Below, piece by piece: positions 1 to 18,629 of a stretch of 49,175 nucleotides of DNA. The DNA is from Candidatus Aegiribacteria sp. Lineage in GTDB: Bacteria > Fermentibacterota > Fermentibacteria > Fermentibacterales > JCC-6. The notes beneath the pieces were generated by a model. That model saw only the letters and a program-made list of their open reading frames with translations, did no database searches and was not told the DNA's origin. The number at the start of each line of letters is the position of its first letter. The stretch's first letter is position 1. The stretch is taken from the NCBI GenBank assembly GCA_021108005.1, contig JAIORS010000175.1:1-49175 (forward strand), written 5' to 3'. The translations under genes and the position numbers were made by a program.

Positions 1-51
1 ACAACAGCTCACCCACCAGTACAAACCAGTTTTGTTGCACTTACGAGTTGA
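1..51 (+). pseudogene. IS30-family transposase, C-terminal end (partial)
   Basis: Reading frame 1 is open from the window edge to a TGA at 49-51 and ends in V-A-L-T-S. The same pattern (VALRT, stop, then a conserved ATCCGGG) occurs on the minus strand at 6889-6966, where it is preceded by TPNEVFF, which is typical of the C-terminus of IS30-family DDE transposases. Only the last 16 residues are visible, so the family call rests on the match between the two remnants. Whether the element is intact upstream cannot be seen. Confidence 0.45.
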
Positions 52-99
52 ATCCGGGAGCCTCCATCAGATCAAATACTTGATTCTTGATTAAGGATA

Positions 100-771
100 T
101 TAATCGGGATATTTGCGAGGACGTCCTCTTTCTCGAGGTACTGCGCTTGTTCCGTGTGTTTTCTCCATTCTCTTCAGGAACCAGTATCTGCCCACAGGAT
201 TGTTTTTTTTCACCGCTTTACGGATTTTAAGTATCTGGGCTGTTTCCGGGTCAATGGATAGGTACTCCTGCCAGTCTTCAATATCAATTTGCACATCAGG
301 TTTGTTGTTCGCGAGGAGATCATACTTTCTGTGGCCCGTGTGAAAACCGGCACTTGACCATCTGTAATCCCATGGATTCAAGGTTATTCCCGCACGGACT
401 GGATTCTGTTCGACGTAACGTATGGCATTGTAGAGGTATGAAGGTCCAAGTGGGCTTGAGTGGAATCTACACTGCCATAGATGTCCCCTCCAGTCATATT
501 GGCTGTTTACGTAATATGCATATTGAGAGTGAGCTTTCCTGAAACAGGAAGCGAAGGATTTCTCCATCTCCGGAATCGCGATCAAATGCACATGATTGCC
601 CATCAGACACCAAGAGAGGAAAGACACGCCATATTCACCAGCAGCATTTCTCAACATTAAGGTATACATGTATCTGTCGGAATCGGAGAAGAAAACAGTC
701 TGATTTCTGTTCCCACGCTGGACGATGTGATGAGGGATTCCCGGTACTACGACTCTTGCTAATCTTGCCAT
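100..771 (-). CDS. REP-associated tyrosine transposase (RAYT, Y1_Tnp / IS200-like)
   Basis: Single-strand DNA transposase of the HUH Y1 class that is normally domesticated to mobilise REP hairpins. The start is taken at the Met of MARLARVVVPG (771), the usual RAYT N-terminus, rather than three codons upstream. Visible features are IPHHIVQRGNR near the start, the metal-binding HUH pair in GNHVHLIAIP, and the tyrosine helix region YAYYVNSQYDWRGHLWQCRF. At 223 residues it has the normal length and looks intact. Two direct copies of a GGGACGGAGG-containing repeat lie just upstream of its start (857-926), and an inverted pair lies downstream of htpG (44990-45028). These are good candidates for its REP substrate, though the link is inferred. 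Confidence 0.9.
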   Translation of the reverse strand: MARLARVVVPGIPHHIVQRGNRNQTVFFSDSDRYMYTLMLRNAAGEYGVSFLSWCLMGNHVHLIAIPEMEKSFASCFRKAHSQYAYYVNSQYDWRGHLWQCRFHSSPLGPSYLYNAIRYVEQNPVRAGITLNPWDYRWSSAGFHTGHRKYDLLANNKPDVQIDIEDWQEYLSIDPETAQILKIRKAVKKNNPVGRYWFLKRMEKTHGTSAVPRERGRPRKYPD

Positions 772-856
772 ACTAAACATATGTATACTAATCTCAGGTT
801 ATCTGTCAACCCCATTACGAAATGGCATTAGATCGAATTATTTGTGGAAATTGAAT

Positions 857-926
857 AAAATCCCTCCGTCCCTATTTTTTGGTATATTTATTTATAAATT
901 TGCATTAAAATCCCTCCGTCCCTATT
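857..926. repeat. REP-like direct repeat pair
   Basis: A 20-base unit (core TCCCTCCGTCCCTATT) occurs at 857-876 and again, identically, at 907-926, exactly 50 bases apart. It lies between the RAYT start and the natA-like gene. The reverse complement of the core, GGGACGGAGG, reappears twice as a hairpin after htpG. The two copies here face the same way and do not pair with each other. Confidence 0.8.
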
Positions 927-971
927 ATTCTTTATTCAGATTGGCTTTAGGAAGTAACGGAGGAGGATGAA

Positions 972-1739
972 TTGTTAAGGGTTGAGAATCTCTGCAAAGT
1001 ATTCAAGAACAAGAAAAAACACAAAGTAGAAACCGTTGAAGCGGTCAAAGATGTCTCTTTCGAATGCAGTCCTGGTGAGATATTCGGATTGCTCGGACCC
1101 AACGGAGCCGGGAAGACGACTACACTCAGATGCATATCCACATTGATAAAGCCTACCAGCGGTAACGTATACATAGACCGTTACAATGTGATGGAAAACG
1201 AGAAAGCCATCAGATCAAGAATAGGTTTTCTGACTTCGGATATGAAGCTCGATGGATTCTTCACTCCCGATTACATGGTGGATTATTTTGGCGCTCTCAA
1301 CAAGATGAGCAGAGAGGATATTCAGCGGCGGAAGGAATACCTTTTCAACGAACTGCAAATGACGGATTTCATCCACAAGAAGATAGACAAGCTTTCCACC
1401 GGTATGAAACAGAAGACGGCGATTGCCATAAGCCTCATTCATGACCCCGAGGTTATCGTATTCGACGAGCCGACAAACGGGCTTGACGTTATCACATCCA
1501 AATCGGTTACGGATTTCCTCGAGAAGTACGCGGAGTCGGGAAAGACGATAGTTATATCCACCCATATAATGAATGTGGCGGAAAAACTCTGCGACAGATT
1601 CGGGATACTCGTTGATGGCGAGCTTAAAGAGCTTGGTACGCTTTCTGATATACTTGGGAAGAACTCCTCGGACAACCTTGAGGATGTATTCTTCAGCTAC
1701 ATTCTTCCAGGCACAGAGGAGGAGGTGAACCATGCTTAG
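972..1739 (+). CDS. ABC exporter ATP-binding protein, NatA-like
   Basis: ATPase subunit of an ABC-2 type exporter, expected to energise the membrane protein encoded immediately downstream. Walker A is GPNGAGKTT (42-50), the signature is LSTGMKQ (141-147), Walker B is VIVFDEP (161-167), and the switch histidine lies in STHIM (His198). Length (255 aa) and motif spacing are normal. The start is a TTG placed after a strong AGGAGG. The stop overlaps the next start by 8 bases, so the pair is translationally coupled. NatAB systems extrude Na+ in Bacillus, but the substrate cannot be deduced here; a drug or peptide exporter is equally possible. Confidence 0.88.
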   Translation: MLRVENLCKVFKNKKKHKVETVEAVKDVSFECSPGEIFGLLGPNGAGKTTTLRCISTLIKPTSGNVYIDRYNVMENEKAIRSRIGFLTSDMKLDGFFTPDYMVDYFGALNKMSREDIQRRKEYLFNELQMTDFIHKKIDKLSTGMKQKTAIAISLIHDPEVIVFDEPTNGLDVITSKSVTDFLEKYAESGKTIVISTHIMNVAEKLCDRFGILVDGELKELGTLSDILGKNSSDNLEDVFFSYILPGTEEEVNHA

Positions 1740-2961
1740 CGACAGCCTTATCATTCTGAAAAAAGAACTGAAGCGAATATTTACCGACAGGCGGATGGTC
1801 GCCATGCTGGTGCTTCTGCCTCTTCTCATGCTTCCCGCGATGTACTCGGTAATGGCTAAGATGGGTCAGGCCAGGGATTCGGATATTGCGTCATTCACTT
1901 CATCTATCTGCATTTACGAAGGAGCCGGTAACGAAGACGTCATGGGGCAGTTCATAGAAGTGATCTCCGAAATAAACACAAGTCTGGAACTGGTGCAGTT
2001 TGAGGAGCTTGATGCCGTAAAGCAAGCCATAACCGACAAAGATAAAGAGCTTCTTCTTGTAATGCCCGACAATTTCCATGAGAGCCTTGCCGCATGCAGT
2101 ACTTTCGATATCGCTATCTACTTCAATTCCACCGCGGATTACTCCGAGTACGCTTACAATGAAGTTAGCGAAGTTCTGACCGTACTCAGCGGAGATATAA
2201 TCAGAGAGAGAATTCTGGAAAGGGATATGTCAGAGGAGATTCTGAGCGTATTCACCGTAAACGAGGCTTTGATAGGGTACGATCTCGCGAAAGAAGGCAG
2301 CGTGATGGGGAAGATAATCAGTATTCTTCTTCCATTCTTCATAATCATCTACCTCTTTGCAAATTCCATGAAAGTAGGGCTCGATACGGTTGCCGGGGAG
2401 AAGGAGAGAGGAACTCTTGCAGTGATCCTGGTTAACCAGGTCGACAGGCTTTCAATAGTTATAGGAAAAATGATGTCCGTGATGGTTGCCGCTATTGTCG
2501 GAGCGGCAAGTTCGGTGATCGGTCTTATCATCGCTTCAAGATATTTAATGGTAATGATCGGCGCATCCGGCGCTGCCATCTCAAGCTACAGTATGAGTTC
2601 GATTCATATCCTTCAGTTTACGATTGTTGTAATCCCTCTGGCTGTTCTTGTGGCAAGCATGGTTCTCATCGTATCAACTTTCGCGAGGAATACAAAAGAG
2701 GGTAATGGAATGATCATGCCCGTTTACTTCGTTGTGATGATAATGGGAATGGCGACCATGCAGACAGGAGATGTTCCTCCGAAGTGGATGATATCAGCAC
2801 CTGTTTTCAACTCCCTGCTTGTTCTCAAGGATATACTCATGAAGGATGCGGCCTGGGGCACCATTTTAACGGCTTCACTTTCCAGTGTTGTTCTTTCCGC
2901 TATTCTTATTTACCTGACTCTGAAGATGTTCAGCAGCGAGAAGATCCTTTTCAGGATCTAA
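1732..2961 (+). CDS. ABC-2 type exporter permease, NatB-like
   Basis: Membrane partner of the preceding ATPase. It has one N-terminal membrane segment (about residues 22-43), a large extracytoplasmic domain (about 45-190), and then five or six hydrophobic segments to the C-terminus. This is the standard NatB / ABC-2 layout (409 aa). The start ATG follows GGAGGTG inside the end of the ATPase gene. A 108-base partial copy of this gene, with an internal 408-base deletion, lies at 6968-7075, so this locus took part in a local duplication. Confidence 0.85.
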   Translation: MLSDSLIILKKELKRIFTDRRMVAMLVLLPLLMLPAMYSVMAKMGQARDSDIASFTSSICIYEGAGNEDVMGQFIEVISEINTSLELVQFEELDAVKQAITDKDKELLLVMPDNFHESLAACSTFDIAIYFNSTADYSEYAYNEVSEVLTVLSGDIIRERILERDMSEEILSVFTVNEALIGYDLAKEGSVMGKIISILLPFFIIIYLFANSMKVGLDTVAGEKERGTLAVILVNQVDRLSIVIGKMMSVMVAAIVGAASSVIGLIIASRYLMVMIGASGAAISSYSMSSIHILQFTIVVIPLAVLVASMVLIVSTFARNTKEGNGMIMPVYFVVMIMGMATMQTGDVPPKWMISAPVFNSLLVLKDILMKDAAWGTILTASLSSVVLSAILIYLTLKMFSSEKILFRI

Positions 2962-2981
2962 CGTGTACCCCCTGGAATGTT

Positions 2982-3182
2982 CGGGCAGTGGTGAAAACAC
3001 TGCCTGGAGATTCAAATAAATCAATTCAGGAGAATTAATTTGCCTGTCTCGATTGAGGAACCGCATTCAACACGGTACATATACATTCCTCTGGATACTG
3101 GTTTATCTCTTTCATCGGTACCATCCCAGATCACGGAATGCTGGTGCGCTGAGATATACCAGAGAATCTTCATTCTCAGAAA
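2982..3182 (-). pseudogene. Duplicated sorting-domain fragment fused to a glycosyltransferase start
   Basis: The segment is closely similar to 8139-8300 (the end of the propeller gene and its downstream hairpin), then jumps to the equivalent of 8087-8110 (the first codons of the glycosyltransferase). It forms a 50-codon open frame at 3021-3173 starting MKILWYIS, continuing HSVIWDGTDER and ending KLILLN before TGA. The first eight codons come from one gene and the rest from the sorting domain of another. It has no complete domain and is probably not functional. The copied hairpin (2982-2990 with 2998-3006) is kept with one G-T pair. The remaining bases of this 390-base gap hold nothing I recognise. 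Confidence 0.8.
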
Positions 3183-3351
3183 CCCCTTTTCCGAGTCCTG
3201 TTAATTGTGTTCACTCATTCAGACATCAATATACATCCGCAACGGATATTCCGGGTATTGACGGTTCTTGACGACCATGCCTTGATTCTACATCTAATAA
3301 ACTCAATGAAACGAATCTCAGATTATCCTGATTGAAGGGAAATACAGACGA

Positions 3352-5346
3352 ATGATCCGCCTTGAAAGCCTGTACACACTTATTGAGAGCAGCTTCGATT
3401 TTCTTCTGGTTATTGACGCAAACGAGAGTATAATTTACGTAAGCCCGTTGCTTAAAAGAACCTGTTGTCCGGGAAACAGCGATGATTCCAGAAAACACCT
3501 GGATAGTATTCTTGATCAGGAATCCCTTCAATCCTTCCGAAATGCCATGGAACAGATGCATGAAGGATCAAGGGGTGTCATAGCGCTGTTTACCGCACAA
3601 ATGGATAAAGCATCCCCTTTACCCATGAAGGTTGGTTATATAGAAAGTGTTCATGGAGGTATCTATCTTTTCTTCGGATCCAGGATTGATAGCCTGCACA
3701 GGATCAGGGATTGGGAAAAGGAGGAACGGGTAAAGGAACTCTCCTGCCTTTATTCGGTTGCCGAATGGATAGATGTTTCAGTCTCTATAAAGGAATTTTT
3801 CACAAAACTGCCCGAATACCTCTCAAGGGGCATGCGCTCGCCGGATGAAGCTGTCGTATTCTCTATTTATCAGGGGGAAGAGTATGGCCAGAAGCCCTCG
3901 GAAAATGATTATATCAATGTTGATCTCATAGTAGACGATGAACATAAAGGTGAAATCATGGTGGGATACATCAGTGGAACCAACGAACTTCTTCCTGAAG
4001 AGCAGCAAATGCTCAACGAAATTGGGAGAATGTTGAGTATTGCCCTGGAGCGTAAGGAGCTTTCTGAAAAGATGGCTCTTAATGAGGAGGAAGAGGAAGA
4101 TCTGAATAACCGTCTGAGCAAACTGGAAGCGGAAATCAATGAACGGGCAAAGGAACTGGAGGAACAGAAACAGAAACTCAGCACAGCCGACTCCTACCTG
4201 AACAGGGTCAACAGAAGCTGGGAGGAAACCAGAAGCCGTCTTGAAACCATGTTTCAGGCTATTCCTGGTGAGGTCATGCTCATAGACCTCAACAGGAATG
4301 TTGTCATGAGTAATAAAGATGAAATTGAACCCGGTGATAAGTGCTACAGAACATATTTCAACCGTGATACACCATGCAGGGATTGCAGGCTGGGAAAGAT
4401 CAGGCGTGATAAAACACCCATAACGATTACGATGAGGAACGGGGAAAGGTTCCTGGAAGTTAATACGCTCCCTGTGTACAACCAGGAGGAGGAAGTTGAA
4501 GGGATACTGGAGTTTTACAGGGATGTTACCCTTGAGAAAACGTACGAACAGCAGCTCCAGCAGGCGGACAAGTTGGCTTCGCTTGGGCAGCTGGTCAGTG
4601 GCATCGGTCATGAAATAAATAATCCAAACCAGTTCATAAGAGGAAATATCAAGATAATCAGACAGGCGATAACGGACATGCTGCCAATAATTGATGATTT
4701 CAAGAAGGATCATCCCGATCTTAAAATTGCCCGTCTCAAGTACGATTTCTTCCGGGAACATGTCATGACACTCATCGATGATATGTCTCACGGTTCCGAG
4801 CGGATAAAGGGAATCGTAGAGGGTCTTCGTGGTTTCGCCAGGAAGGACGAGGGTCTCCTGGTGGATACAGTCGATGTCAATACTCTTATTGAAGCCACTA
4901 CGAGGCTGGTGAAGAATGAAGTACACAAGCATGCTGAGATTGTGCTTGAACTTGGAAACGATGTGAAAAAATTCACCGGGAATTCGCAGAAAATAGAGCA
5001 GATATTCGTTAATCTAATTGTAAACGCCGCGCAGGCAATTCCCGATGATAAAAAAGGTCTTATCACGGTTCGGACGTACATGGATAACAGTGATAGCATA
5101 GTAATAGAGATAGAGGATAACGGAAAGGGAATGGATGAAAAGACTCAGAAGCAAATTTTCGACCCGTTCTTCACCACAAAAAGGGCAAAAGGGGGCACCG
5201 GCCTGGGTCTTGCTATTGCCTTCCGGATAGTGGAGGAACATAAAGGAACGGTTTCAGTAAGCAGCACACCCGGTGTTGGCACGAAATTCATGATCAAGAT
5301 TCCCGTAAAGGAAGATAAATCGAAGGACGGGAAGGTGAATAAATGA
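3352..5346 (+). CDS. Soluble PAS-GAF-PAS sensor histidine kinase
   Basis: Cytoplasmic two-component kinase with no membrane segment. In order it has an N-terminal PAS (about 7-110), a GAF-like domain (about 125-240), a Glu/Lys-rich coiled coil (about 240-295), and a second PAS (about 300-395) with Cys331, Cys342 and Cys345 in a CY...PCRDC pattern that could bind metal or sense redox. Then come HisKA with phospho-acceptor His420 in GIGHEINNP and a HATPase with EQIFVNLIVNAAQ, EDNGKGM and GGTGLGLAI. Its stop overlaps the next start (ATGA), so it is co-translated with the NtrC-like regulator, its obvious partner. The signal sensed is unknown. Confidence 0.9.
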   Translation: MIRLESLYTLIESSFDFLLVIDANESIIYVSPLLKRTCCPGNSDDSRKHLDSILDQESLQSFRNAMEQMHEGSRGVIALFTAQMDKASPLPMKVGYIESVHGGIYLFFGSRIDSLHRIRDWEKEERVKELSCLYSVAEWIDVSVSIKEFFTKLPEYLSRGMRSPDEAVVFSIYQGEEYGQKPSENDYINVDLIVDDEHKGEIMVGYISGTNELLPEEQQMLNEIGRMLSIALERKELSEKMALNEEEEEDLNNRLSKLEAEINERAKELEEQKQKLSTADSYLNRVNRSWEETRSRLETMFQAIPGEVMLIDLNRNVVMSNKDEIEPGDKCYRTYFNRDTPCRDCRLGKIRRDKTPITITMRNGERFLEVNTLPVYNQEEEVEGILEFYRDVTLEKTYEQQLQQADKLASLGQLVSGIGHEINNPNQFIRGNIKIIRQAITDMLPIIDDFKKDHPDLKIARLKYDFFREHVMTLIDDMSHGSERIKGIVEGLRGFARKDEGLLVDTVDVNTLIEATTRLVKNEVHKHAEIVLELGNDVKKFTGNSQKIEQIFVNLIVNAAQAIPDDKKGLITVRTYMDNSDSIVIEIEDNGKGMDEKTQKQIFDPFFTTKRAKGGTGLGLAIAFRIVEEHKGTVSVSSTPGVGTKFMIKIPVKEDKSKDGKVNK

Positions 5347-6698
5347 AGAAAGTACTCATTGTAGACGATGATGTTGCCGTAACCAATTATTTCATGGTCT
5401 TCCTGATGCAGACAGAGATATTTGAACCCACCGTTATTAACGATTCAAGACAGGTTGAAGAATTACTCGAGAAAGAACATTTCGATGTGATCATGCTGGA
5501 CCTCGATATGCCCAATGTCACCGGTATGGATATACTGGGAATGATGAACACGAAAGGAATAAAAATCCCGGTACTTATACTCACCGGAGTTAATGATGTC
5601 GAATTGGCGGTGAAGAGCATGAAGAGGGGAGCATTTGACTATCTGACAAAACCTGTGGATGATGAATACCTTCTGGAAGTCCTGAATAATGCCATGGAAC
5701 ACGGAGCCGTCCACAGTACGATTAATAGTTTGCCTCAGACTCTATCCAGGGATGACCTGGATAATAAGGCGGCTTTCGAACATCTGCCTACGCAGGACCC
5801 TGCGGTCATCCACCTTTTTCACCAGGCGGAGCAGATGGCGGAAGGAGACCTGAGTGTATTCATCTGGGGTGAAAGGGGTACAGGTAAGGAATCGCTGGCC
5901 AGAGCGATTCATAATGCGTCCCCAAGGGTTGATAGACCTTTCGTTGCCGTAGACAGCGCTTCGCATTCCCCGGAAGAGTTCTCATCAGAGCTATTCGGCA
6001 GGGTCAGGGACTGGAGCGGGAAGAGCAAAGAGATGTCTGGTTTTCTGGAAACCGCTTCGGGAGGAACTCTCTTTATCGATAATATCGAGAATATGAGCCT
6101 TCCAGTTCAGGTCAGGCTGAAAAGAGTTATACAGACAAACGAGTACTACAGAGACAATTCCACTGAGATCATGAGAAGTGATGTAAGGTTCATAGTCGCT
6201 TCCACACAAGATCTTACAAGCTCCAGATACCGTGAATCCTTCTCAAGGGATCTTCTTTATCACCTTATGGTAAATTCTATCCGTATTCTTCCACTGAGGG
6301 ACAGGGCTGATGATATCCCTCTTCTTGCCGAGTATTTCCTGAAGGAGGAAGTGGAAAGGACAGGAAAGCAAATCACCGGATTTTCCGATGAACTCCTTGA
6401 GCTTTTAAGGCAGTACAATTATCCCGATAATGTTCAGGAACTGAAGAACATCATAGCCTATGCAGTTGTGAACACTGACAGCGATATGTTAAGCATAGAA
6501 TCACTATCACCGTATGTCCGTGAGAGAATAATTCCTGGTGAAATGTCAGGGGATTTCATCTCCATGAAGCTTCAAAACAAGATTGCCGATTATGTAAAGG
6601 AAACCGTGGAGTACTGCGGAGGGGACAGAAAGAATGCCGCTAGACTGCTTGATATTGATATTGATAGACTGGATAAGCTGATGGAAGACAACCTTTGA
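5343..6698 (+). CDS. NtrC-like response regulator with degenerate AAA+ domain
   Basis: REC domain (1-120) with acidic DDD at 8-10, phospho-acceptor Asp53 in LDLDMP and a conserved Lys in TKPVDD. An AAA+ domain (about 150-385) and a Fis-type helix-turn-helix (about 405-451) follow. Walker A is normal (GERGTGKE, 176-183). The Walker B Glu is replaced by Asn (LFIDN, Asp246-Asn247), and the GAFTGA loop that contacts sigma-54 is absent: ELFGRVRDWSGKSKEMSG stands in its place. So it is built like a sigma-54 activator but probably cannot remodel sigma-54 holoenzyme. It may act as a DNA-binding regulator of sigma-70 promoters, like TyrR or PhhR. Its target is unknown. Confidence 0.88.
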   Translation: MKKVLIVDDDVAVTNYFMVFLMQTEIFEPTVINDSRQVEELLEKEHFDVIMLDLDMPNVTGMDILGMMNTKGIKIPVLILTGVNDVELAVKSMKRGAFDYLTKPVDDEYLLEVLNNAMEHGAVHSTINSLPQTLSRDDLDNKAAFEHLPTQDPAVIHLFHQAEQMAEGDLSVFIWGERGTGKESLARAIHNASPRVDRPFVAVDSASHSPEEFSSELFGRVRDWSGKSKEMSGFLETASGGTLFIDNIENMSLPVQVRLKRVIQTNEYYRDNSTEIMRSDVRFIVASTQDLTSSRYRESFSRDLLYHLMVNSIRILPLRDRADDIPLLAEYFLKEEVERTGKQITGFSDELLELLRQYNYPDNVQELKNIIAYAVVNTDSDMLSIESLSPYVRERIIPGEMSGDFISMKLQNKIADYVKETVEYCGGDRKNAARLLDIDIDRLDKLMEDNL

Positions 6699-6759
6699 CG
6701 AACATGATTGGAAACATATTTCCATGTTAAGGGTTGTTGGCTTACATCCCGTGACTCCG

Positions 6760-6806
6760 GTATTTTTCTTCCATGTATAAAATATCCGCTGATTCAATTA
6801 GAAAAA
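6760..6806 (+). pseudogene. Copy of the 5' end of the GT39-like gene
   Basis: This stretch is nearly identical to 10586-10632, covering the leader, ATG and first ten or so codons (MYKISADSIRK) of the membrane glycosyltransferase at 10599. The match ends abruptly and the following bases are unrelated. It is one of several juxtaposed fragments in the 366-base gap after the NtrC-like gene. Confidence 0.8.
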
Positions 6807-6888
6807 GAGCGCTTGGAAAAGCGTTCTTCATACACATTCCTGAATTCTTCATAATGGGAATCCAGCAACCTGAATAAAGGACCCGGAT

Positions 6889-6966
6889 TCAAGTTCTAAG
6901 TGCAACAGTTAACCTTTCAATTGTGTTGAAGAATACTTCATTGGGTGTTTTGAAGGCAAGTTTCTT
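6889..6966 (-). pseudogene. IS30-family transposase C-terminal remnant
   Basis: The minus strand encodes KKLAFKTPNEVFF, then TIERLTVALRT and a TGA at 6889-6891. TPNEVFF followed by VALRT-stop is characteristic of IS30-family transposase ends. The downstream ATCCGGG matches the bases after the transposase end at window positions 49-58. The fragment is cut directly against the natB copy at 6968. Confidence 0.65.
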
Positions 6967-6967
6967 T

Positions 6968-7075
6968 AGGCTTTCAATAGTTATAGGAAAAATGATGTCC
7001 GTGATGATTGCCGCTATTCTCATTTACCTGACTCTGAAGATGTTCAGCAGCGAGAAGATCCTTTTCAGGATATAA
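6968..7075 (+). pseudogene. Truncated natB copy with internal deletion
   Basis: Bases 6968-7018 match natB 2446-2496 and bases 7011-7075 match natB 2897-2961, with about three differences in 108 bases and the same stop. The 408-base deletion is in frame and its ends share the 8-base word CCGCTATT, so it was probably lost by short-repeat recombination or replication slippage. There is no start codon context, so it is a dead fragment. The minus-strand glycosyltransferase gene ends inside it. Confidence 0.85.
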
Positions 7076-8099
7076 GGTATCCTCCTGAAACGATGAAATC
7101 GGCTCCATTTCCATCAACCTGTGATGGAACGGGGTCTTTTGAAACATTCATTACCGCTTCAGGCAGCAGGTGCAGATCCGCTTGATCCAGGATTTCTGTT
7201 GCAATTCTTCCATACATAGGTTCAAGGAGATAGGGTTCCTCGGGGAAGGATCCTCTCCTCATAAGAACGCATGGTTTCCCAAGGGCCAGTATCTGAGATA
7301 CTATTCCGTAACCTGACTTCGAAATTACAACGTCAGCTGCGGCCATCAGATCGGAAAATGTAATCCCCATGGATGACAGTCTTTCCGGGGAGATATTCAG
7401 TATCCCTTCAGATATTGGTTCAGGGGCTGAAGATATCAGAATGAAATCATCAGGTTTTTTTATTGTTTCGGTTGAAGGCAGTTCCCTTAGAGCTACCAGA
7501 CAGATTTTTCCCTCCGGCAGAACGCTTCGTGCCTTTTCTGAATTACCGTCAGATCCACTCCTCAGAAGCGGAATATCAACGGTCTCATGAAATGGGCTGG
7601 TTCGGGGGCCCATTGGAAGCCTGAGGTAAGTACCCCAACTGTACATTTCGCCTATTCTCAGGATATCTTCCCGGATATCCGGAAACAGTTCAGCCATGAT
7701 CCAGTCCCATGTGAAATTGCCTATTCCCAGAGCGGGAATTGATCTTTCAGAAGCAGCGGCAACCGGCAATGGATCAATATCTGTGATAACGATATCCGGT
7801 TTAATTTCGTCCTGGAAAGCAATCTCTTCACTCAACAAAGGAGAATACGAAACAAGAAAACCTGAGAGATTTGCCAGCGTTGCTTCGTTGTCGATATTAC
7901 CGTGAGTTTCAATTGCTACCGGTGAAGGGGAGCCACGGCGGATATCATCGATCCCTGAATCTTTCCAGAACCATCGGGGGACATTTGAAGCTACGGTTAT
8001 GCTGGTATCAGGATGCTTCTGTCTGTAGACACTTATCAGCTCACGCTGTCTTGCGGCGTGACCCCATCCGTGTGATGAGATATGCCAGAGAATCTTCAT
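7065..8099 (-). CDS. GT-B-fold glycosyltransferase, MurG / arabinokinase N-domain-like
   Basis: Predicted cytoplasmic glycosyltransferase of 344 aa with no signal peptide. The N-terminus MKILWHISSHGWGHAARQRE matches the HGxGHAxR glycine-rich loop of the MurG-like superfamily and of the glycosyltransferase domain fused to plant L-arabinokinases. The C-terminal half has VVISKSGYGIVSQILALGKP and a following EEPYLLE stretch, the usual nucleotide-sugar binding region. Its last four codons run into the copied natB fragment, so the native C-terminus may have been altered by the rearrangement. Acceptor and sugar are unknown. Confidence 0.75.
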   Translation of the reverse strand: MKILWHISSHGWGHAARQRELISVYRQKHPDTSITVASNVPRWFWKDSGIDDIRRGSPSPVAIETHGNIDNEATLANLSGFLVSYSPLLSEEIAFQDEIKPDIVITDIDPLPVAAASERSIPALGIGNFTWDWIMAELFPDIREDILRIGEMYSWGTYLRLPMGPRTSPFHETVDIPLLRSGSDGNSEKARSVLPEGKICLVALRELPSTETIKKPDDFILISSAPEPISEGILNISPERLSSMGITFSDLMAAADVVISKSGYGIVSQILALGKPCVLMRRGSFPEEPYLLEPMYGRIATEILDQADLHLLPEAVMNVSKDPVPSQVDGNGADFIVSGGYLIS

Positions 8100-8140
8100 A
8101 TTCAGAAAATTTGCTCCTCTACGATGATTCCATGGATTTC

Positions 8141-8169
8141 TCCGGGCAGAAGCAGAAACACTGCCCGGA
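8141..8169. terminator. Hairpin downstream of propeller gene
   Basis: Perfect 9-bp stem TCCGGGCAG / CTGCCCGGA with an 11-base loop, 13 bases past the propeller stop. It has no T-run on the minus strand, so it could be a weak terminator or an RNA-stabilising hairpin. A diverged copy is at 2982-3006. Confidence 0.4.
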
Positions 8170-8181
8170 GATTCAAATCAA

Positions 8182-10419
8182 TCAGTTCAGAAGAATGAGT
8201 TTGCCTGTCGCGATTGAGGAACCGCATTCAACTCGGTACATGTACATTCCCCTGGATACAGGCACGCCTCTTTCATCGGTACCATCCCAGATCACGGAAT
8301 GCTGTTGCGCTGAATGATTACCGTCTGCGAGAGTTCTTACGATGCGGCCTGACATATCAAAGACATTGATGTTGACATTTGCCTCTGCCGGTACGCTATA
8401 CTGTATCACTACTGAGCCGAAGAATGGATTCGGCGAGATCGCGCACTGAAGAACATTTCCGATATCTGAAGAATGCGACGAGGATATTCCGGTTGTTCCG
8501 GGATCGAAAGAGGATAATCCGCTGTCATCCGTTCCGAACCAGACAACTTCCCCTTCTCCCATGCCGGCCGCGTTTACTTCGTTGTCCGCGAGGCCTTCCG
8601 TCTGTGAGTAGGAGGTCCATCCTGCTCCATTCTCATAACTGGCAGCGCCATCCAGAGTTGAAATCCATACGATCCCCGAATCGGAGACACAAATATCGGT
8701 TACGTAGTTATCCGGCAGACCGTCGGCTGTTGTATAATTCGTCCACGTTCCGCTGGAGAAATGACTTACGCCGCCCATTGTCGCTATCCACTTGCCATCG
8801 AATTCATCAAATGCTATGGCCTGGACATGATCTTCAATAAGGCCGCTGTTGCCAGTATGATAGTCTGTCCAGTTTGAGGGATAATGGAACTTGCTTATAC
8901 CCTCTTCGGTTCCTATCCAGAGAGTATCCGCGTTATCAACATAGACCTGCAGGCCGTCATCGTCGATTAGACCACTGTTCTGAAGATAGTAATTGGTCCA
9001 TGAAGATCCGTCGAATCTGGAAAGGGCTCCGTCCTGGCCACCCGGACCACTCCAGCCTGAGGTTCCGAACCAGAGGTTTCCGTAGCTGTCGGATGCTGCT
9101 GACAGCACAATATCTCCCAGAAGATCGGAGTTACCGGTATTGTAGTTAGTCCAGGTTGTTCCGTCGTACTTCCATACCCCCATAAACTGAGAACCTGCCC
9201 AAAGTACGTTATCTGCAATATGAACGTCGTTGATGTTGTTATCTACTAGACCGCAGTTATCTGACGTGTAGCATGACCATGCGCTTCCATCGTACAATGC
9301 GATACCGCTGTGATCTGTTCCGAAATATAGAGAGACATCTGAAGTTCCGACATCTCCGTACTCTATTGAAGTAAAATAGTTGGTATGCGGTTCGTTAGAT
9401 GTTTCAAGGTATTGCCATGTGGATGTTCCATCGTAACCTGCGGTTCCGTAATACGCTGTACCGAACCATGTCACTCCGCCAGCGTTGGCAATCGAATAAA
9501 CGTAGGGATCGGGAAGTCCGGAGTTCGCCGGGGTCAGAATGTCCCATGAACCATTATCGTATCTGGCAACACCGGCGGTTGTGGGTGTTGGAGACGCCGG
9601 ATGGTTAGAAATCCATACTGTGGAATCAGGCTCGACCTCGAATGCCTCGATATTGTTTCCCAGAAGGGAGCTGTTGCCGTTATCGTAATGAGTCCAGGAA
9701 GTGCCGTTGTAAAGGAACACATAATTCGTCCAGCTTCCTGCCCAGACACTATCCCTGCCATCTACCGTAAGTGAAAGAAAATACTGCCCGATACTGCTGC
9801 CCGGGTCCGGATTATGGTATGTCCAGGAAGTGCCGTCGTACATCGATACTCCGCCCGGGTCGCCGTAGTTGTCGGGATTGTTTGCGGTCCAGATATGGTT
9901 CTGCGAGTCGACTCCCATTCCGCGGACAGCAATGTTTGTTGCTCCTCCGCCGAGATCGGTGAAAACTTCCATTGTTGTTCCGGTTAATTTAGCGCAGCCG
10001 TGTCCGGTTCCAAACCACATGGACGTGCCCTGATCCTGTACGATGCAGTAGACTCTGTTATCGGGCAGAAGGGAATTATCAGTGTTGTATACTGTCCATG
10101 TGCTGCCATCGTAACACTGTACACCCTCGGTTGTTCCGAACCAGATGTTTCCCGAATTGTCAATAAAGACTTCTTTAACATTCTGATCCGCAAGCCCTTC
10201 TGTGGTAGTGAACTTCTGATATGTCTGTGCAGAAATGTTCCAGAGGAGAGCTCCGCCTCTGGTCCCGGCCCAGAGATCGTTGCCGTCGACTGCCAGCCCG
10301 CTTACAAAGCCGGCTTCCGTATATGTTGTCCAGGTTCCCGCAAAACATGTGCCTGAAAGCAATGTCGCCGCAAACAGGATAAGTGAAAAGCCTATGATGT
10401 TTTTTCTGCAATTCTCCAT
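8182..10419 (-). CDS. Secreted two-component-regulator-type beta-propeller with C-terminal sorting domain
   Basis: Signal peptide (residues 1-27, cleavage likely after CFA) followed by about 620 residues of repeats of the form WTxYTxxNSxLxxNxVxxI...GxxWFGT (Reg_prop blades), enough for two seven-bladed propellers. About 80 C-terminal residues match a FlgD-Ig / Por-type sorting domain (NPFFGSVVIQYSVP, VFDMSGRIVRTL, HSVIWDGTDERG, GMYMYRVE). In FCB bacteria such domains direct export through a type IX-like system and cell-surface attachment. No DNA-binding or kinase domain is present, so it is a surface or secreted protein of unknown ligand. Part of its 3' end is copied at 2982-3170. Confidence 0.85.
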   Translation of the reverse strand: MENCRKNIIGFSLILFAATLLSGTCFAGTWTTYTEAGFVSGLAVDGNDLWAGTRGGALLWNISAQTYQKFTTTEGLADQNVKEVFIDNSGNIWFGTTEGVQCYDGSTWTVYNTDNSLLPDNRVYCIVQDQGTSMWFGTGHGCAKLTGTTMEVFTDLGGGATNIAVRGMGVDSQNHIWTANNPDNYGDPGGVSMYDGTSWTYHNPDPGSSIGQYFLSLTVDGRDSVWAGSWTNYVFLYNGTSWTHYDNGNSSLLGNNIEAFEVEPDSTVWISNHPASPTPTTAGVARYDNGSWDILTPANSGLPDPYVYSIANAGGVTWFGTAYYGTAGYDGTSTWQYLETSNEPHTNYFTSIEYGDVGTSDVSLYFGTDHSGIALYDGSAWSCYTSDNCGLVDNNINDVHIADNVLWAGSQFMGVWKYDGTTWTNYNTGNSDLLGDIVLSAASDSYGNLWFGTSGWSGPGGQDGALSRFDGSSWTNYYLQNSGLIDDDGLQVYVDNADTLWIGTEEGISKFHYPSNWTDYHTGNSGLIEDHVQAIAFDEFDGKWIATMGGVSHFSSGTWTNYTTADGLPDNYVTDICVSDSGIVWISTLDGAASYENGAGWTSYSQTEGLADNEVNAAGMGEGEVVWFGTDDSGLSSFDPGTTGISSSHSSDIGNVLQCAISPNPFFGSVVIQYSVPAEANVNINVFDMSGRIVRTLADGNHSAQQHSVIWDGTDERGVPVSRGMYMYRVECGSSIATGKLILLN

Positions 10420-10598
10420 ATGTATCCTTTCTTGATATACTCAATAGAACATTACTAAAAATTGTACCATTCATTTCAATTCGCAAGTATACTGCGAGAC
10501 ACACAAACTATCCAATATTGAAACTCATCTGTTTCATCAATAGAGTCTTTTCTTACCTGTTGTTGCCTGCCGTAGATTGATTCTTGTATTTTTCTCTC

Positions 10599-12251
10599 AT
10601 GTATAAAATATCCGCTGATTCAATTAGAAAAATAGAACCTCTGATTCTACTGGCCATTATGCTGCTTGCTTTAATGGTGCGCCTTCCTGTGCTTATCAGG
10701 AATCCTGTTCCGGCGGGAGACGGTATAGCATCCAATCTGGAAGTTGCAGTTAACCTCCGGGAGGAATGTGGCTTCTCCACTATGCGGAAATGGACCCTTT
10801 ACAACGATTCCATGGATAATGTAAGGCCCGAGGGCAACAGGCAGCCTGCTATGGCGGTTTTTCTATATGTCCTTTTTATGATAACCGGTCCGGGGTTCAC
10901 TGCGGCACAGGTACTGTCCCTCTTCATTGGAACCGTATGTCTGCTGACGTGCTGGTTATGGATAAGAAGGAATTTTGGAATTATTCCGGCATTGTTCTCA
11001 GTACTGGTACTGTCAATAACCCCATTGTTCGTCTGGTATTCAACCCAGCCGGATAGTCTTCTTCTGTTTACCACACTGTTTTTTGTGACACTTGTTGTGG
11101 CGGATACGGAAACACTCAGCTTCAGAAGGATAATTGTTCTGGGAATTCTATCCGGACTGGCCTACCTGACCAGAACGCAGGGCATGCTTCTTGCGTTTTC
11201 AATTGGAGTCTGGGTGCTTGTCAGGGGAAGAGAAAAAAGGATATTGAAAATTCTTCTGTTCGTTCTTGTATTTATCCTTACATGCATGCCCTGGTTTATT
11301 CGTAATTATGAAGCCTTTGGTTCTCCCACATTTACCCAGAACGGCCAGTTCCTGCTGAATGAGAATCACGGTGCTGCCTACGAAGTCAGGGAAAACGCTC
11401 CCGGCCCCACTGATATGTTTCGCAATCAGGGGCCTGCAGCTGTTCTTGTCTATATAATCAAGGGGACATTGAGGGTGATGGAACCTGTGACAACCGGTTC
11501 ACTGCACAGAGGAGAGAATTTCGGACAACCCTCTATGGTTGGTTTTGCTGTTCTTGCACTGCTGGCTCTCTCATCCTCATCAATTCGCAGAAAGATGCTT
11601 CTGCCCCTGATTGCGGCCCTTCCTGTCATGGCAGTTCTTACTCTTCATGAACACAGCGGGAGATACCTGGCTTTTTTCATAGTTATCGTTACCGGATTGG
11701 GCTCGGCGGGACTCATGAGGCTGCTGAAGCTTGCCGGAAAGAAAGCAACGGTTATCGCCGGAATCCTCCTTCTGCTGCCCTTTGTACTGCCACTGGGACG
11801 CCTTCTTGCTGTGGATTCTACTGAAAGAGCAGCAGAAGCTCAGGAAATATCACAATGGTTAACAACAATCTCTTCCGAGGATGACTGGGTTGTTACGTAT
11901 CCCAGCGTGGAGTTGTTCATCTGGCAGTATCGACGCCCCACGCTTACGATGCCCAACGATTACCAGATGCTTCTCTGGCCCTGCCTGGAAAAACATGAGG
12001 TAAGGTATATTGTTGTGGACAGTTACCTTCCGGTTATGAGACCTCACCTTTCGGAGAGATGGGTACGATCACCGGGCGGTGGCTGGGCAATCACCGATCC
12101 TCCCGCATTCCTCACGGAGGTTTACAGAAGCGCTTCGGGAGAATCCATTGTGTACGAAATGACAGGACAGGTTCCCGAAGGGTTCATGCATGTGGATACG
12201 CTGCCCAGGGATAATATGCGGGCATTGTCTTCGGGTGGCATACCTCGCTGA
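10599..12251 (+). CDS. Polytopic membrane glycosyltransferase, GT39 / ArnT-like
   Basis: About 550 residues with roughly ten hydrophobic segments and a short N-terminal cytoplasmic tail. An extracytoplasmic loop after the first segment carries acidic residues (VPAGDGIASNLE) of the kind used by GT-C enzymes, followed by NRQPAMAVFLYVLF and later RTQGML. This is the layout of ArnT / PMT-family transferases that use polyprenyl-phosphate sugars at the periplasmic face. The ATG at 10599 is preferred, and a TTG at 10584 is an alternative. The leader and first codons are duplicated at 6760-6806. Substrate is unknown; its place next to a GT-B enzyme suggests surface glycan or glycoprotein modification. 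Confidence 0.75.
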   Translation: MYKISADSIRKIEPLILLAIMLLALMVRLPVLIRNPVPAGDGIASNLEVAVNLREECGFSTMRKWTLYNDSMDNVRPEGNRQPAMAVFLYVLFMITGPGFTAAQVLSLFIGTVCLLTCWLWIRRNFGIIPALFSVLVLSITPLFVWYSTQPDSLLLFTTLFFVTLVVADTETLSFRRIIVLGILSGLAYLTRTQGMLLAFSIGVWVLVRGREKRILKILLFVLVFILTCMPWFIRNYEAFGSPTFTQNGQFLLNENHGAAYEVRENAPGPTDMFRNQGPAAVLVYIIKGTLRVMEPVTTGSLHRGENFGQPSMVGFAVLALLALSSSSIRRKMLLPLIAALPVMAVLTLHEHSGRYLAFFIVIVTGLGSAGLMRLLKLAGKKATVIAGILLLLPFVLPLGRLLAVDSTERAAEAQEISQWLTTISSEDDWVVTYPSVELFIWQYRRPTLTMPNDYQMLLWPCLEKHEVRYIVVDSYLPVMRPHLSERWVRSPGGGWAITDPPAFLTEVYRSASGESIVYEMTGQVPEGFMHVDTLPRDNMRALSSGGIPR

Positions 12252-12262
12252 TTAATCCTGTG

Positions 12263-13750
12263 TTATTCAAGCAGAGTGAACTTAACGGTTTCCGTTCCGT
12301 GGAGACCTGAAGCCCTTACAATGTAAACCCCGCTTACCGCATTTCCCGGAACCCAGCTTATGCGGTGGGATCCCTGATTGAATTCCTCATCAGCGATTGT
12401 CTCAAGTAGACGTCCTGATATACCGTAAACGGATACATTTACCCTGCATTCCCGCATGACCGTTATGTTAACATCAAGACAATCCGAAACCGGATTTACC
12501 GGGCATGAAAGGATCAGAAAGGAAGTATTTTCATCAGATGATGATTCACCTTCAACTGACAGCAATCCTTCACCGATGTCAAGTATAATTCCCTCAATGA
12601 TATTCAAGCTGTAAGGCATTCCTGACAGAGGGAACTGATACCAGCCGTTGTAACTTCCACCCCAGCCGAAATTCAGGTGATAGAATTCATCGGTGTTGTA
12701 GCCATCGATGATAAGATTATGGCCGCAGGTCGGTGGCTCCGCGTCCACAACGGCAAGATGAGCCGGCATGGCGCCTATCATATTTTCCGATAGCCTCTCG
12801 TAAAGGCTGTCTGAAGATGCTTCGAGAAGACTGCAGCTGGTGAAGTTGAACTTCAGGTAGGCATCGTAGGCCTGGCCAACCCCGTAAGTACCGGAGCCGG
12901 ATGCGGAATAAACCTGTTTGCACGCCGCGCCGCAGGCGTATACAAGAGCAGCTTTATCTGAAGAAGTAATTGTTTCATGGTTTATATAGTGGTTTTCCAG
13001 TGTATCCAGATATACGTTCAACTCGGGCCAGGAAGGGAAATCGTGGGCTATGTGATCATCGTCTATCCAGTAATTCTCATAGTAATTATGTTGATAATCG
13101 TCAGCGTCACTGAACTGTGTACCTTTTGTTGTTTCCTCAAAATTCAGAATTGATGCCATAGCAACTGCGGGACAACCGGCAAGACTTCTGGAACTTGAAG
13201 TCAGATCCATGGGGCAATAGTTATTATAGGGCGCACTCTGAGTCCAGTTTTCCATGAGCCATCCTTCTGTGGGGGTAGTTCCCGCAGGAGGCCACTGTTC
13301 TCTAAGATGGTCGGACAACAGCACATATTTACCAGAGGAATACTCTTCCCACCATGTACGATGCAGCTGAAGCAGTTCCGAAGGAGCATCATGCAGGGAT
13401 GATAGCCTCAGTTCCATATCCGTTTTTATCATGTCAAGAAGAACACTGTTCTCCTCACCTTCAACCCTGCAGTTGTTAGAATAGGAAAAAGCTATCACGG
13501 GAGGCAGCTCGTTATCGGCAGATGTTACTATATATCCCGCAGGGCTCAGTTCGAAGGCGAACGCCAGAGTCTCGTTTCCCTGACCTCCTTCAAGAACGAT
13601 GCAGTCAGCAATTGAGAAATCAGCATCCTGTCCGTCACGGATCAGTTTCGATTTGATAACGTTCAGGGCTTCGTACCGGTCAACCGGTATTGCGTTCAGA
13701 ACACCGAAGAGAAACAGGGGAATGGACATGAATACGATGGTAAACCTCAT
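12263..13750 (-). CDS. Secreted C10 (streptopain-like) cysteine protease with sorting domain
   Basis: Signal peptide (about 1-20), then a propeptide of about 140 residues similar to the SpeB / Spi inhibitory region (SPAGYIVTSADNELPPVIAFS). The papain-fold catalytic domain has the nucleophile Cys193 in LAGCPAVAMASI and His344 in CGHNLIIDGY, followed by FHLNFGWGG-type residues. The known SpeB zymogen uses Cys192 and His340, so the spacing fits well. The C-terminal 90 residues form the FlgD-Ig/Por sorting domain (CPVNPVSDCLDVNI, VYGISGRLLETI, GVYIVRASG). It is probably exported and surface-anchored. The start ATG follows AGGAGG at 5-6 bases. Confidence 0.88.
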   Translation of the reverse strand: MRFTIVFMSIPLFLFGVLNAIPVDRYEALNVIKSKLIRDGQDADFSIADCIVLEGGQGNETLAFAFELSPAGYIVTSADNELPPVIAFSYSNNCRVEGEENSVLLDMIKTDMELRLSSLHDAPSELLQLHRTWWEEYSSGKYVLLSDHLREQWPPAGTTPTEGWLMENWTQSAPYNNYCPMDLTSSSRSLAGCPAVAMASILNFEETTKGTQFSDADDYQHNYYENYWIDDDHIAHDFPSWPELNVYLDTLENHYINHETITSSDKAALVYACGAACKQVYSASGSGTYGVGQAYDAYLKFNFTSCSLLEASSDSLYERLSENMIGAMPAHLAVVDAEPPTCGHNLIIDGYNTDEFYHLNFGWGGSYNGWYQFPLSGMPYSLNIIEGIILDIGEGLLSVEGESSSDENTSFLILSCPVNPVSDCLDVNITVMRECRVNVSVYGISGRLLETIADEEFNQGSHRISWVPGNAVSGVYIVRASGLHGTETVKFTLLE

Positions 13751-13963
13751 TTAAGCCTCCTGTGTTGATTCGGTTCCAGATTATTTCGGATGGAATATAG
13801 ACGAAAATGTGTTTCAGCCAAAATCTGAAGCTGCAGTGATTCCTCATAAGGATTCTGGCAGGTACTGAGTATGTAGTATATATTTCCATTAAGCGCCTCG
13901 TTACAGCCAGTTGTTGAACTAAAAGGATTTATGGCTGCTTTACGGATATTTCAAGGAGTGATG

Positions 13964-15439
13964 ATGTTGAGTACACATTGTAAAAAGTATAGCACAATAT
14001 GGATGTACATTCTGCCGCTGTTCGTGTGTTCTCAATTAGCGCGAACTAATACAGTTATTGGCACCAGTACGCAATCAACAGCCACTGAAAGATGCAATGC
14101 GAGATTGATCGTAGAAGACCTTACAGGTACTTTCCATGTGGTTTATTACGACAATGGAGTATATCATACATATTTGAACGATGGCGCTGATACCTGGTCA
14201 GATCCATATTTGATCGAGAGCATAGCCAGAAATCCATCAATTGCAATAGACTCCGAAAATCAGCTGCACCTTGTTTACAAAAAAGGAGGTGTCTCAGCTT
14301 ACGATATCGTTCAACGGATCTACAGCGGTGGAGCATGGAGCGGCGAAACCCTTGTTCATCATTCAGCTTTTGAGGTATCCCGCCCTGTTCTGGCTGTTGA
14401 TACAGGGGATAACCTGCATTGTGTCTGGCAAAGAGCGGGAGGCGGATCAACGCCGAATTCAGAAATCTATTACAGTAAGTGCACGTCAGGAAGCGGCTGG
14501 GGCAGCGCTTACTGTGTAAGTCAGTCTTACGGCGCTTCGGAGTATCCAACATTGACGATGGATTGGAATAATAACGTTTACGTTTTCTGGAAAGACTCGG
14601 GCGAGGATATCAGCAGTCCGAAAAAGGTGCTGATGAGGAAGTATACGGTTGGATCTGGCTGGGACACGGATTATACGATTGTTGCAATGACCAGTGCCGG
14701 AGATAATTGGGCTACAATGGATCCCTGCGCTGTTTGCGATTCCGATAATAACATCCATCTTGTATGGGCCGATTCGCACAGTGGTAACAAGGAGGTTTAT
14801 TACAAGCAGTTACCGAGCGGAAGCACAACGAATATCAGCAACACATCGTACAGATCTTCGCGTCCCACAATAAGCATTGATACTCAGGACAACCTGTATG
14901 TGGCCTGGGAAGATAAAATCGATAATATCAGTCATGAAATATTGCTTAGATGGTACGATAACATGTCTTCTGTCTGGTCAGTTTCCATAAATATCAGTAA
15001 TACTCCCGGTTCCGATTCAAGGCATCCCAATTGCGCGTTGGAAAAGAAGAGTAGCCTGATTTCGATATGGACTGAAGGTAGTAGTCCAAACTACCAGATC
15101 ATGTTCAACGAAACCGAATATGTTTCAATAGAAACTGAATACGGACATTCTCTTGTTACCGGAAACCGCCTTGCGCAGAACTGTCCAAATCCATTCAATT
15201 CCGTAACCACAATAGGATACAATCTGCCCGTTGTAAGTGAGAACATCAATCTGCGAATTTTTGACACTTCCGGCAGACTCGTAAGAACTATTATTGATGA
15301 GCCTCTTGATGCAGGATATCATTCAGCGATCTGGGACGGAAAAGATGAAAACAGCCAGGATGTTCCTTACGGGCTGTACATATATATGTTCAAAAGCGCG
15401 GGTTACATCGAAACAAGGCAGTGTATTGTATTAAGATAA
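13964..15439 (+). CDS. Secreted BNR/sialidase-like propeller protein with sorting domain
   Basis: Hydrophobic leader WMYILPLFVCSQLART, then about 370 residues of repeats of the type PSIAIDSENQLHLVY and LYVAWED, as in sialidase-like or BNR-type six-bladed propellers. The C-terminal sorting domain reads QNCPNPFNSVTTIGYNLP, then FDTSGRLVRTI, WDGKDENSQDV and YGLYIYMF. No sialidase catalytic Arg triad or Asp-box set is obvious, so enzymatic activity is doubtful. The ATG at 13964 sits 5 bases after AAGGAG and leaves a good signal peptide; ATG 13931 with its own AAGGA would add 11 residues. Confidence 0.75.
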   Translation: MLSTHCKKYSTIWMYILPLFVCSQLARTNTVIGTSTQSTATERCNARLIVEDLTGTFHVVYYDNGVYHTYLNDGADTWSDPYLIESIARNPSIAIDSENQLHLVYKKGGVSAYDIVQRIYSGGAWSGETLVHHSAFEVSRPVLAVDTGDNLHCVWQRAGGGSTPNSEIYYSKCTSGSGWGSAYCVSQSYGASEYPTLTMDWNNNVYVFWKDSGEDISSPKKVLMRKYTVGSGWDTDYTIVAMTSAGDNWATMDPCAVCDSDNNIHLVWADSHSGNKEVYYKQLPSGSTTNISNTSYRSSRPTISIDTQDNLYVAWEDKIDNISHEILLRWYDNMSSVWSVSINISNTPGSDSRHPNCALEKKSSLISIWTEGSSPNYQIMFNETEYVSIETEYGHSLVTGNRLAQNCPNPFNSVTTIGYNLPVVSENINLRIFDTSGRLVRTIIDEPLDAGYHSAIWDGKDENSQDVPYGLYIYMFKSAGYIETRQCIVLR

Positions 15440-15640
15440 AGTATCGTTGTAGCATGCCACCTCCAACAGGATCATTTACGGGATCATTTTTTATATTACT
15501 TCACTCGGTTTATCAGTATTTGAAAGGGTGGATCTCGTATTCTCTTTGCAAATATTGGAACATAGATCGAAATTGAACGTATATAGCAATAGCAATTCTG
15601 TTCCGTGTGACAGATGTGAAATCTGAAAGGGGAGTTTGTA

Positions 15641-16219
15641 TTGAGAAATGTTAAAACTTTAGCAGCTGTTCTTATCACTATAGGACTGCTTCTGTCCGGT
15701 TGCATGACTACTACCCAGCTGGCTACTCTCGGAGTGCCTTTGAATTATGCCAGGTCTCCTGTTCTTGATTCCAGGGCTCAATGGAGGACTGTAATACTGC
15801 CTCCATCGGCAACTCCTACATGCAGGCTTACCGATGTGAGCGGATTGAGTGATTACGCCGGGATGGCTCTGCTGAGAACGGGTCAATTCTCACTGGTGGA
15901 CAGATCGGTTATCGATCAGCTTCTACAGGAGCAGGAATTCTCCTATTCCGGTGTGGTTGATCAGGCTACCGCTGTTCAGCTGGGCAAGCTTCTTGGAGCT
16001 GAGGCGGTAATGACGATAAATATCGGCCCCATCACGCATGACAGCTTCTGGGACGATGAACCTGCGCAGCGTGATGCAAGCCTTCATGTTAAAATTGTCT
16101 CAGTTGAGACTTCAGAGGTGCTCTACACATCCACCGGCGAAGGCACATGCTTTGAAGGAGCCGAAGGGGCTTTGAAAATGGCCCTCGAGGTTTCCCTGAT
16201 GGGTCTTACACAGCAATAA
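15641..16219 (+). CDS. CsgG-family lipoprotein
   Basis: 192-residue lipoprotein with signal and lipobox LLLSGC (Cys21). The mature part resembles the periplasmic domain of CsgG / HfaB-type proteins: a short NxLLRTGQFSLVDRSVID segment, a helix QLLQEQEF, then VQLGKLLGAEAVMTINIGPI. The start is a TTG, 6-7 bases after AAGGGGAG. It leads a three-gene run with two more lipoproteins (gaps of 7 and 3 bases), which are probably one operon acting at the outer membrane or periplasm. The 200-base gap upstream shows no gene. Confidence 0.7.
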   Translation: MRNVKTLAAVLITIGLLLSGCMTTTQLATLGVPLNYARSPVLDSRAQWRTVILPPSATPTCRLTDVSGLSDYAGMALLRTGQFSLVDRSVIDQLLQEQEFSYSGVVDQATAVQLGKLLGAEAVMTINIGPITHDSFWDDEPAQRDASLHVKIVSVETSEVLYTSTGEGTCFEGAEGALKMALEVSLMGLTQQ

Positions 16220-16226
16220 CAAAGGA

Positions 16227-17213: not shown

Positions 17214-17225
17214 CGGGTGACCGGA

Positions 17226-18419: not shown

Positions 18420-18455
18420 TTGTATTATCGCACGAAGTATGATCCAACAAAAGAG

Positions 18456-18479
18456 AACCGGGATCGCAGGACCCCGGTT
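18456..18479 (+). terminator. Hairpin after lipoprotein operon
   Basis: Stem AACCGGG / CCCGGTT (7 bp) with a 10-base loop, 37 bases after the last lipoprotein stop. It lacks a clear T-tract, so it is a possible but unproven terminator. Confidence 0.4.
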
Positions 18480-18629
18480 CCTCTAGCCCGCATCATGGTT
18501 CCGCAGGTCTAATGAATTTGTTTGCGATCAGTGGGCTCGTATTCCTTATTGTACACAAATACAACTATGTTCTATCGTCGGTGGGTACATTGAAGCGTGA
18601 GCCGCGCCGTTCTTACTCGTCAACAATGA

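Follow-up and report, generated by a model that had tools for sequence, protein, structure and literature searches.

Gene fragments at a Candidatus Aegiribacteria locus suggest decayed tandem duplication with complementary gene loss

A 49,175-bp stretch of DNA (the window) from a 3.21-Mb, 231-contig genome of the uncultured bacterium Candidatus Aegiribacteria carries four genes, natB, GTB, 745 and GT39, each of which is present as one intact copy together with a fragment. We find that the locus is probably what remains, in decayed form, of a chromosome segment that was duplicated or amplified in tandem, in more than one step, and then underwent complementary loss. The duplicated segment would have extended from inside natB past GTB, HK, RR and GT39, in at least one round reaching as far as 745, and one intact copy of each gene would have been kept in different repeats, which would account for the position of GTB and 745 between RR and GT39. 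The fragments would thus descend from tandem copies through at least two steps, and an insertion sequence (IS) remnant at one joint would have taken part in making that joint.

Intact genes of the locus

The intact genes, assigned mainly by Pfam domains, are as follows.

1732-2961, plus strand: natB, intact ABC-2 permease gene (Pfam ABC2_membrane; repeats), source of fragment natB'
3352-5346, plus strand: HK, sensor histidine kinase gene (Pfam HATPase_c)
5343-6698, plus strand: RR, NtrC-like sigma-54 activator gene (Pfam Sigma54_activat, Response_reg)
7065-8099, minus strand: GTB, intact GT-B-like glycosyltransferase gene, overlapping natB' (Pfam Glyco_trans_1_3)
8182-10419, minus strand: gene 745, intact, with two-component-regulator propeller repeats and a C-terminal FlgD-like/sorting domain (Pfam)
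10584-12251, plus strand: GT39-like gene (GT39), intact, with a likely ATG at 10599 (Pfam PMT_2; ORF lists)
12263-13750, minus strand: C10pep, C10 peptidase gene, tail to tail with GT39 (Pfam Peptidase_C10)
13931-15439, plus strand: gene 502, sorting-domain protein gene, whose neighbor on that side in relative G010 is 745 (Pfam; comparison with G010)

Repeat, local-fragment and shuffle comparisons detected no remnants of HK, RR, C10pep or 502 in the window. Two further features lie beyond these genes. An IS200-like Y1 transposase gene (100-780, minus strand) sits beside natA, an adjacency that is kept in seven relatives (G002, G003, G007, G010, G011, G016 and G017) and is unusual for a mobile gene. 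In addition, a 94-bp stretch at 17654-17747 is 95% identical to contig C22 of G013 and is the sole match of region 13900-18500 in that genome.

A mosaic of gene pieces between RR and GTB

Between RR and GTB, positions 6752-7075 consist of pieces set end to end: the 5' end of the GT39-like gene, the first part of an IS91-like transposase gene, the last part of an IS30 transposase gene and a natB 3' end that has an internal deletion.

6752-6807, plus strand: GT39', 5' end of a putative former first GT39 copy (90% to 10578-10635 over 58 bp, BLAST)
6808-6881, minus strand: 5' part of an IS91-like transposase gene (DNA matches in relatives and in own-genome contig C83)
6882-6967, minus strand: IS30 transposase gene, 3' end and terminal sequence (98% to own-genome C200:12988-13073)
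6968-7075, plus strand: natB', internally deleted natB fragment (two blocks matching intact natB)
10578-10635, plus strand: second copy of the GT39 start repeat, right bound of a 3.8-kb block (repeat spacing 3826)

GT39' comprises 35 coding bases from an ATG at 6773 plus 21 bases upstream. In a search of the genome against itself, 6752-6809 matched 10578-10635 at 90% with an E value of 2.4e-15, and the alignment score of 86 compares with 26 for the best of 200 shuffles. The step from RR to GT39' parallels the arrangement in G017, in which RR is directly followed by GT39. The two GT39 start repeats lie 3826 bp apart and bound the 3.8-kb block natB'-GTB-745. Within natB', block 1 (6968-7021) is 96% identical to 2446-2499 and block 2 (7008-7085) is 91% identical to 2894-2971, with the latter match extending to 7090 and 2977, respectively; the natB sequence between the two blocks has been deleted at the 8-bp repeat CCGCTATT.

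The original prediction had described a mosaic of four gene fragments after the NtrC-like gene, and all four are present far above chance, although it missed a fifth piece, the IS91-like stretch at 6808-6881. Its proposal that 7065-10640 supplied most of the source sequence does not hold, since of all the pieces GT39' alone derives from that region; natB' has its source upstream, at 2446-2961, and the IS pieces have their best own-genome matches on other contigs. It had also counted the end of the GT-B gene inside the natB copy as part of the scar. The GTB stop does fall inside natB' (GTB, 7065-8099; natB' end, 7075), but the overlap is ancestral, as in G010 the ends of GTB and natB likewise overlap, tail to tail. 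Conservation of the same mosaic with coding constraint across distant species had been named as evidence against a scar, and no complete GT39'-IS-natB' mosaic was found among 59 other genomes, with five candidates scored in each.

A second mosaic after intact natB

A second mosaic, at 2982-3182, lies downstream of intact natB and joins the end of gene 745 to the start of GTB.

2962-2977, no strand assigned: possible last bases of a lost first GTB copy, past the natB stop (BLAST match of 7008-7090 reaching 2977)
2982-3152, minus strand: 745', pseudogene fragment consisting of the 3' end of gene 745 with its downstream hairpin (87% to 8143-8313)
3144-3182, minus strand: GTB', 5' end of GTB and putative first-copy remnant beside HK (87% to 8070-8108)

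The last 43 residues encoded by 745' are 91% identical to those of gene 745, and the two fragments are joined at a 3-bp TGA. Window positions 3144-3411 align, with only small gaps, to a G010 stretch that runs from the GTB start through the spacer to the HK start, so GTB formerly lay before HK in this lineage. The match at 2962-2977 is weak and suggestive, and may mark the end of the lost GTB copy. The joint between natB and 745' is common to G013, where window positions 961-3080 are covered by a single alignment of about 2.1 kb at 86%. The natB-side 745 fragment of G013 is 88.6% identical to the intact 745 of the window and 81.6% identical to 745'. Downstream of natB, G013 also holds a patchwork (L026:3-480) that runs from an IS30-type helix-turn-helix piece to a HepT-like piece and then to the 745 3' fragment.

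Every fragment match has an E value of 2.2e-6 or lower within the genome. Searching outside ORFs of 90 codons or more, and counting only copies within the same stretch, we found five local gene-fragment matches in window positions 1-16000, all five in the orientation of their source. A control of 255,828 bp from the same genome, made up of the remaining 33,175 bp of the window and a 222,653-bp sample in 20 stretches, gave a single match of 37 bp, inverted and at a contig edge; nine of the 20 stretches did not reach 10 kb and were too short to reveal distant copies. The contrast between window and control is large, even though the control is post hoc and the window was picked for looking odd.

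Gene order in relatives within the genus

Comparison with relatives suggests that the ancestral order was natA-natB-GTB(minus)-HK-RR-GT39-C10pep(minus)...502-745(minus). This order was pieced together from G010, G017, G003 and G016, and no relative holds all of it on one contig. Contig C90 of G010 carries natA-natB-GTB(minus)-HK with overlapping natB and GTB ends, an overlap that natB' and GTB of the window retain (7008-8108 versus C90, 72%), and G017 carries natA-natB-HK-RR-GT39-C10pep(minus). On contig C375 of G010, read inverted, the order is GT39-C10pep(minus)-502-745(minus), with about 4.8 kb from C10pep to 502, while 745 lies less than 1 kb from C10pep in G003 and G016. The tail-to-tail pair of GT39 and C10pep is also found in G010, G014 and G017. 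The window differs from this order in having GTB and 745 between RR and GT39. In its fragments, GTB' keeps HK as its ancestral neighbor, natB' keeps GTB and GT39' keeps RR, whereas 745' has no ancestral neighbor on either side.

Of 19 genomes in the genus, 2 carry GTB and 6 carry a nearly full-length 745, with the present genome included in both counts; GT39 was detected in 15 at E 1e-60. GT39 is not beside RR in all relatives: the two are on separate contigs in G002, G011 and G012 and 4 kb apart in G018, while in G003 GT39 was not found and RR adjoins C10pep. The RR-GT39 part of the order therefore rests mainly on G017. Outside the genus, natA, natB and HK were absent at 45% identity or above from the sequence around GTB in seven Fermentibacteraceae or Sabulitectum loci among 13 GTB loci, some of these stretches being short. 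A search for RR in six further genomes gave no match at E 1e-100, in a set that lacked a positive control and is uninformative. The site that 745 would have vacated was sought in the genome itself, where the only matches to the right-hand neighbor region of 745 were at 67-68% and are probably paralogs.

The spacer between natB and HK varies among relatives, measuring about 110 bp in G003, 0.4-0.65 kb in G017, G002 and G016, and 4.4 kb in G007; it includes an ORF-like stretch in G002 and G016 that looks shortened in G017. Upstream of 745, G014 and G010 share 92.6% identity across 1983 bp, compared with 84% in the adjoining sequence, a difference that may come from recent exchange.

Divergence of the fragments and number of events

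Divergence between copies and sources is about 2-23%, and the values are heterogeneous (homogeneity p 0.026). In a two-class grouping chosen after the values were known, mismatches number 5 of 143 in natB' plus the coding part of GT39' and 26 of 201 in 745' plus GTB' (Fisher p 0.002); with the GT39 upstream part added to the first class the comparison becomes 10 of 164 versus 26 of 201 (Fisher p 0.034). natB' is closest to its own natB (104 of 108 positions, compared with 98 for G013, 92 for G010, 91 for G017, 90 for G003 and 89 for G002). An older age for 745' and GTB' would fit the natB/745' joint common to G013, but the closer similarity of the G013 fragment to intact 745 than to 745' would count against a simple reading of this older class. 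Alternatively, natB' could have stayed young through exchange between copies.

When the ancestral genes are numbered from natA (1) to 745 (9), the window reads 1, 2, 9', 3', 4, 5, 6', IS, 2', 3, 9, 6, 7, 8, an order with three descents, from which we infer a past stage with no fewer than four copies arrayed in tandem. Since the divergences are not homogeneous, one event does not suffice; either there were several, or the copies exchanged sequence later. A single duplication as the source of all fragments was rejected on the three descents together with the two divergence classes.

Insertion-sequence remnants at the GT39'/natB' joint

The IS91-like piece at 6808-6881 has no Pfam match on its own, but its DNA has matches in at least 11 of 59 other genomes (with five candidates scored in each), and the Zn_Tnp_IS91 domain is present in the ORFs surrounding two of these matches (L018 and L019). 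We considered a REP or MITE-like element at these positions and rejected it, as relatives show the coding start of an IS91-like transposase. By eye, several copies of the IS91-like start in different genomes of the genus set in at almost the same position, preceded by differing upstream sequences. The IS91 zinc domain has five matches in the assembly, none of them shown to be part of an intact element. Another IS91-type zinc-domain fragment of the window (29492-29614, minus strand) neighbors a gene whose product has a sorting-type C-terminus.

The IS30 piece (6882-6967) likewise has no Pfam match alone, but the sequence that it matches in G020 lies at the C terminus of a complete IS30 transposase (NF033563 protein), whereas no full transposase ORF was found in the two stretches around its two G046 matches. 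A domain search detected no IS30-type HTH_38 domain in the assembly; because contig C200 breaks off within a copy of IS30, the assembly may lack intact ones.

The original prediction suggested that IS30 might drive the rearrangement. In favor of this, IS30 and IS91-like remnants do lie at the GT39'/natB' joint. However, both outer breakpoints fall within IS genes and not at the ends of the elements, and the junction of IS30 end to IS91 start also occurs in G017, on a different contig, so that the two pieces are probably an older compound remnant. An IS role is consequently only suggestive; the elements may instead have entered the joint once it was already dead, or have been trimmed by deletion. 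The broader part of the prediction, repeated local duplication and deletion, agrees well with the same-orientation fragments, the ancestral neighbor kept by three of four local fragment types and the two divergence classes.

Weighing the explanations

From the GTB'-HK, natB'-GTB, RR-GT39' and GT39-C10pep adjacencies that have been kept, natB, GTB and GT39 would each once have been present twice, in the same orientation, and been lost in complementary fashion. Traces of HK-RR or of C10pep-502 were sought in the gaps between GTB and 745 and between 745 and GT39, and none of eight comparisons on both strands exceeded its shuffle maximum. These missing remnants count against tandem duplication and loss, under which loss in both gaps would have to be complete. 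The missing HK-RR trace suits an alternative in which a natB'-GTB-745 block was copied and inserted into the GT39 start, either as a circle or through one-ended transposition of the IS91 kind, with later decay of the source. Such a move would account for a second copy with no detected HK-RR remnant, for the IS remnant at the left edge of the block and, if a circle integrated by homology, for the GT39 start copies flanking the 3.8-kb block. A target repeat as long as about 58 bp is not what simple transposition would produce; IS30 target repeats are a few bases and IS91 leaves none. The position of the breakpoints inside IS genes speaks against this transposition as well, and alone it leaves unexplained the 745' fragment after natB that is common to G013. 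We judge it unlikely.

We find it very doubtful that the fragments are independent short fillers, that is, pieces of nearby genes copied into breaks during repair with no duplication of a whole segment. The pieces are indeed short, some joints show little or no microhomology and G013 has further patchwork downstream of natB, yet the five fragment matches all run in the same direction as their source, and GTB', natB' and GT39' each keep an ancestral neighbor, unlike random filler. An assembly chimera is highly improbable, even for a metagenome-assembled genome in 231 contigs, with joints among repeats and a single genome compared for the species, in which five joints (745'/GTB', GT39'/IS91, IS30/natB', GTB/745 and 745/GT39) are uncorroborated in other assemblies. 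The distance of the copies from their sources means that they are not misjoined identical repeats, and other adjacencies recur elsewhere: natB/745' in G013, natB-GTB and GTB start-HK in G010, and RR-GT39 and IS30 end-IS91 start in G017.

Comparison with known systems

Stepwise tandem duplication with complementary loss, the explanation we favor, has a familiar counterpart in mitochondrial genomes, where tandem duplication-random loss keeps orientation, changes order, leaves each gene once and places remnants where they are expected. The window shares these features of orientation, altered order, single genes and remnants, but differs in being part of a bacterial chromosome, in having IS remnants at one joint and in probably having passed through several rounds.

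Among bacterial models, SNAP proposes that a segmental duplication is followed by loss of different genes from different copies, which yields a new gene order, and its authors suggest that old duplications might be traced by searching for pseudogenes that have an active counterpart (Brandis and Hughes 2020, PMC7055797). The pseudogene fragments and active copies of the window resemble the intermediate footprint that they propose; selection for gene dosage and niche entry is a further element of SNAP (PMC7055797). Rearrangements of operon clusters between species have been attributed to segmental duplication and/or transposon-directed recombination with asymmetrical loss (PMC8046335); that case is argued from gene order, in a main text in which the word "pseudogene" does not appear, whereas the window has decayed fragments (PMC8046335). 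Unflanked IS-associated amplification through a "locus-joining IS" has also been described (Yelin and Kishony 2026, PMC13423834). As in that system, an IS remnant in the window joins the distant GT39 start and natB while intact natB and GT39 have no IS, but in the window the outer joints both fall within IS genes and the remnants belong to two IS types, which makes the match suggestive only (PMC13423834).

Duplication with complementary loss can reshuffle gene order, and a readable trail of it is rare; a literature search covering a small part of the field found no described fossil of this kind. The locus has the form proposed by the SNAP authors, with polarity supplied by relatives. Tentatively, it may be a readable natural footprint of the SNAP type, in which repeated tandem amplification around an IS joint was trapped by complementary loss and the fragments mark the copies. 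A genome-wide test could look for same-orientation gene fragments at sites where relatives hold the intact gene. The finding is a new and well-marked instance of a process known in outline, not a new kind of system.
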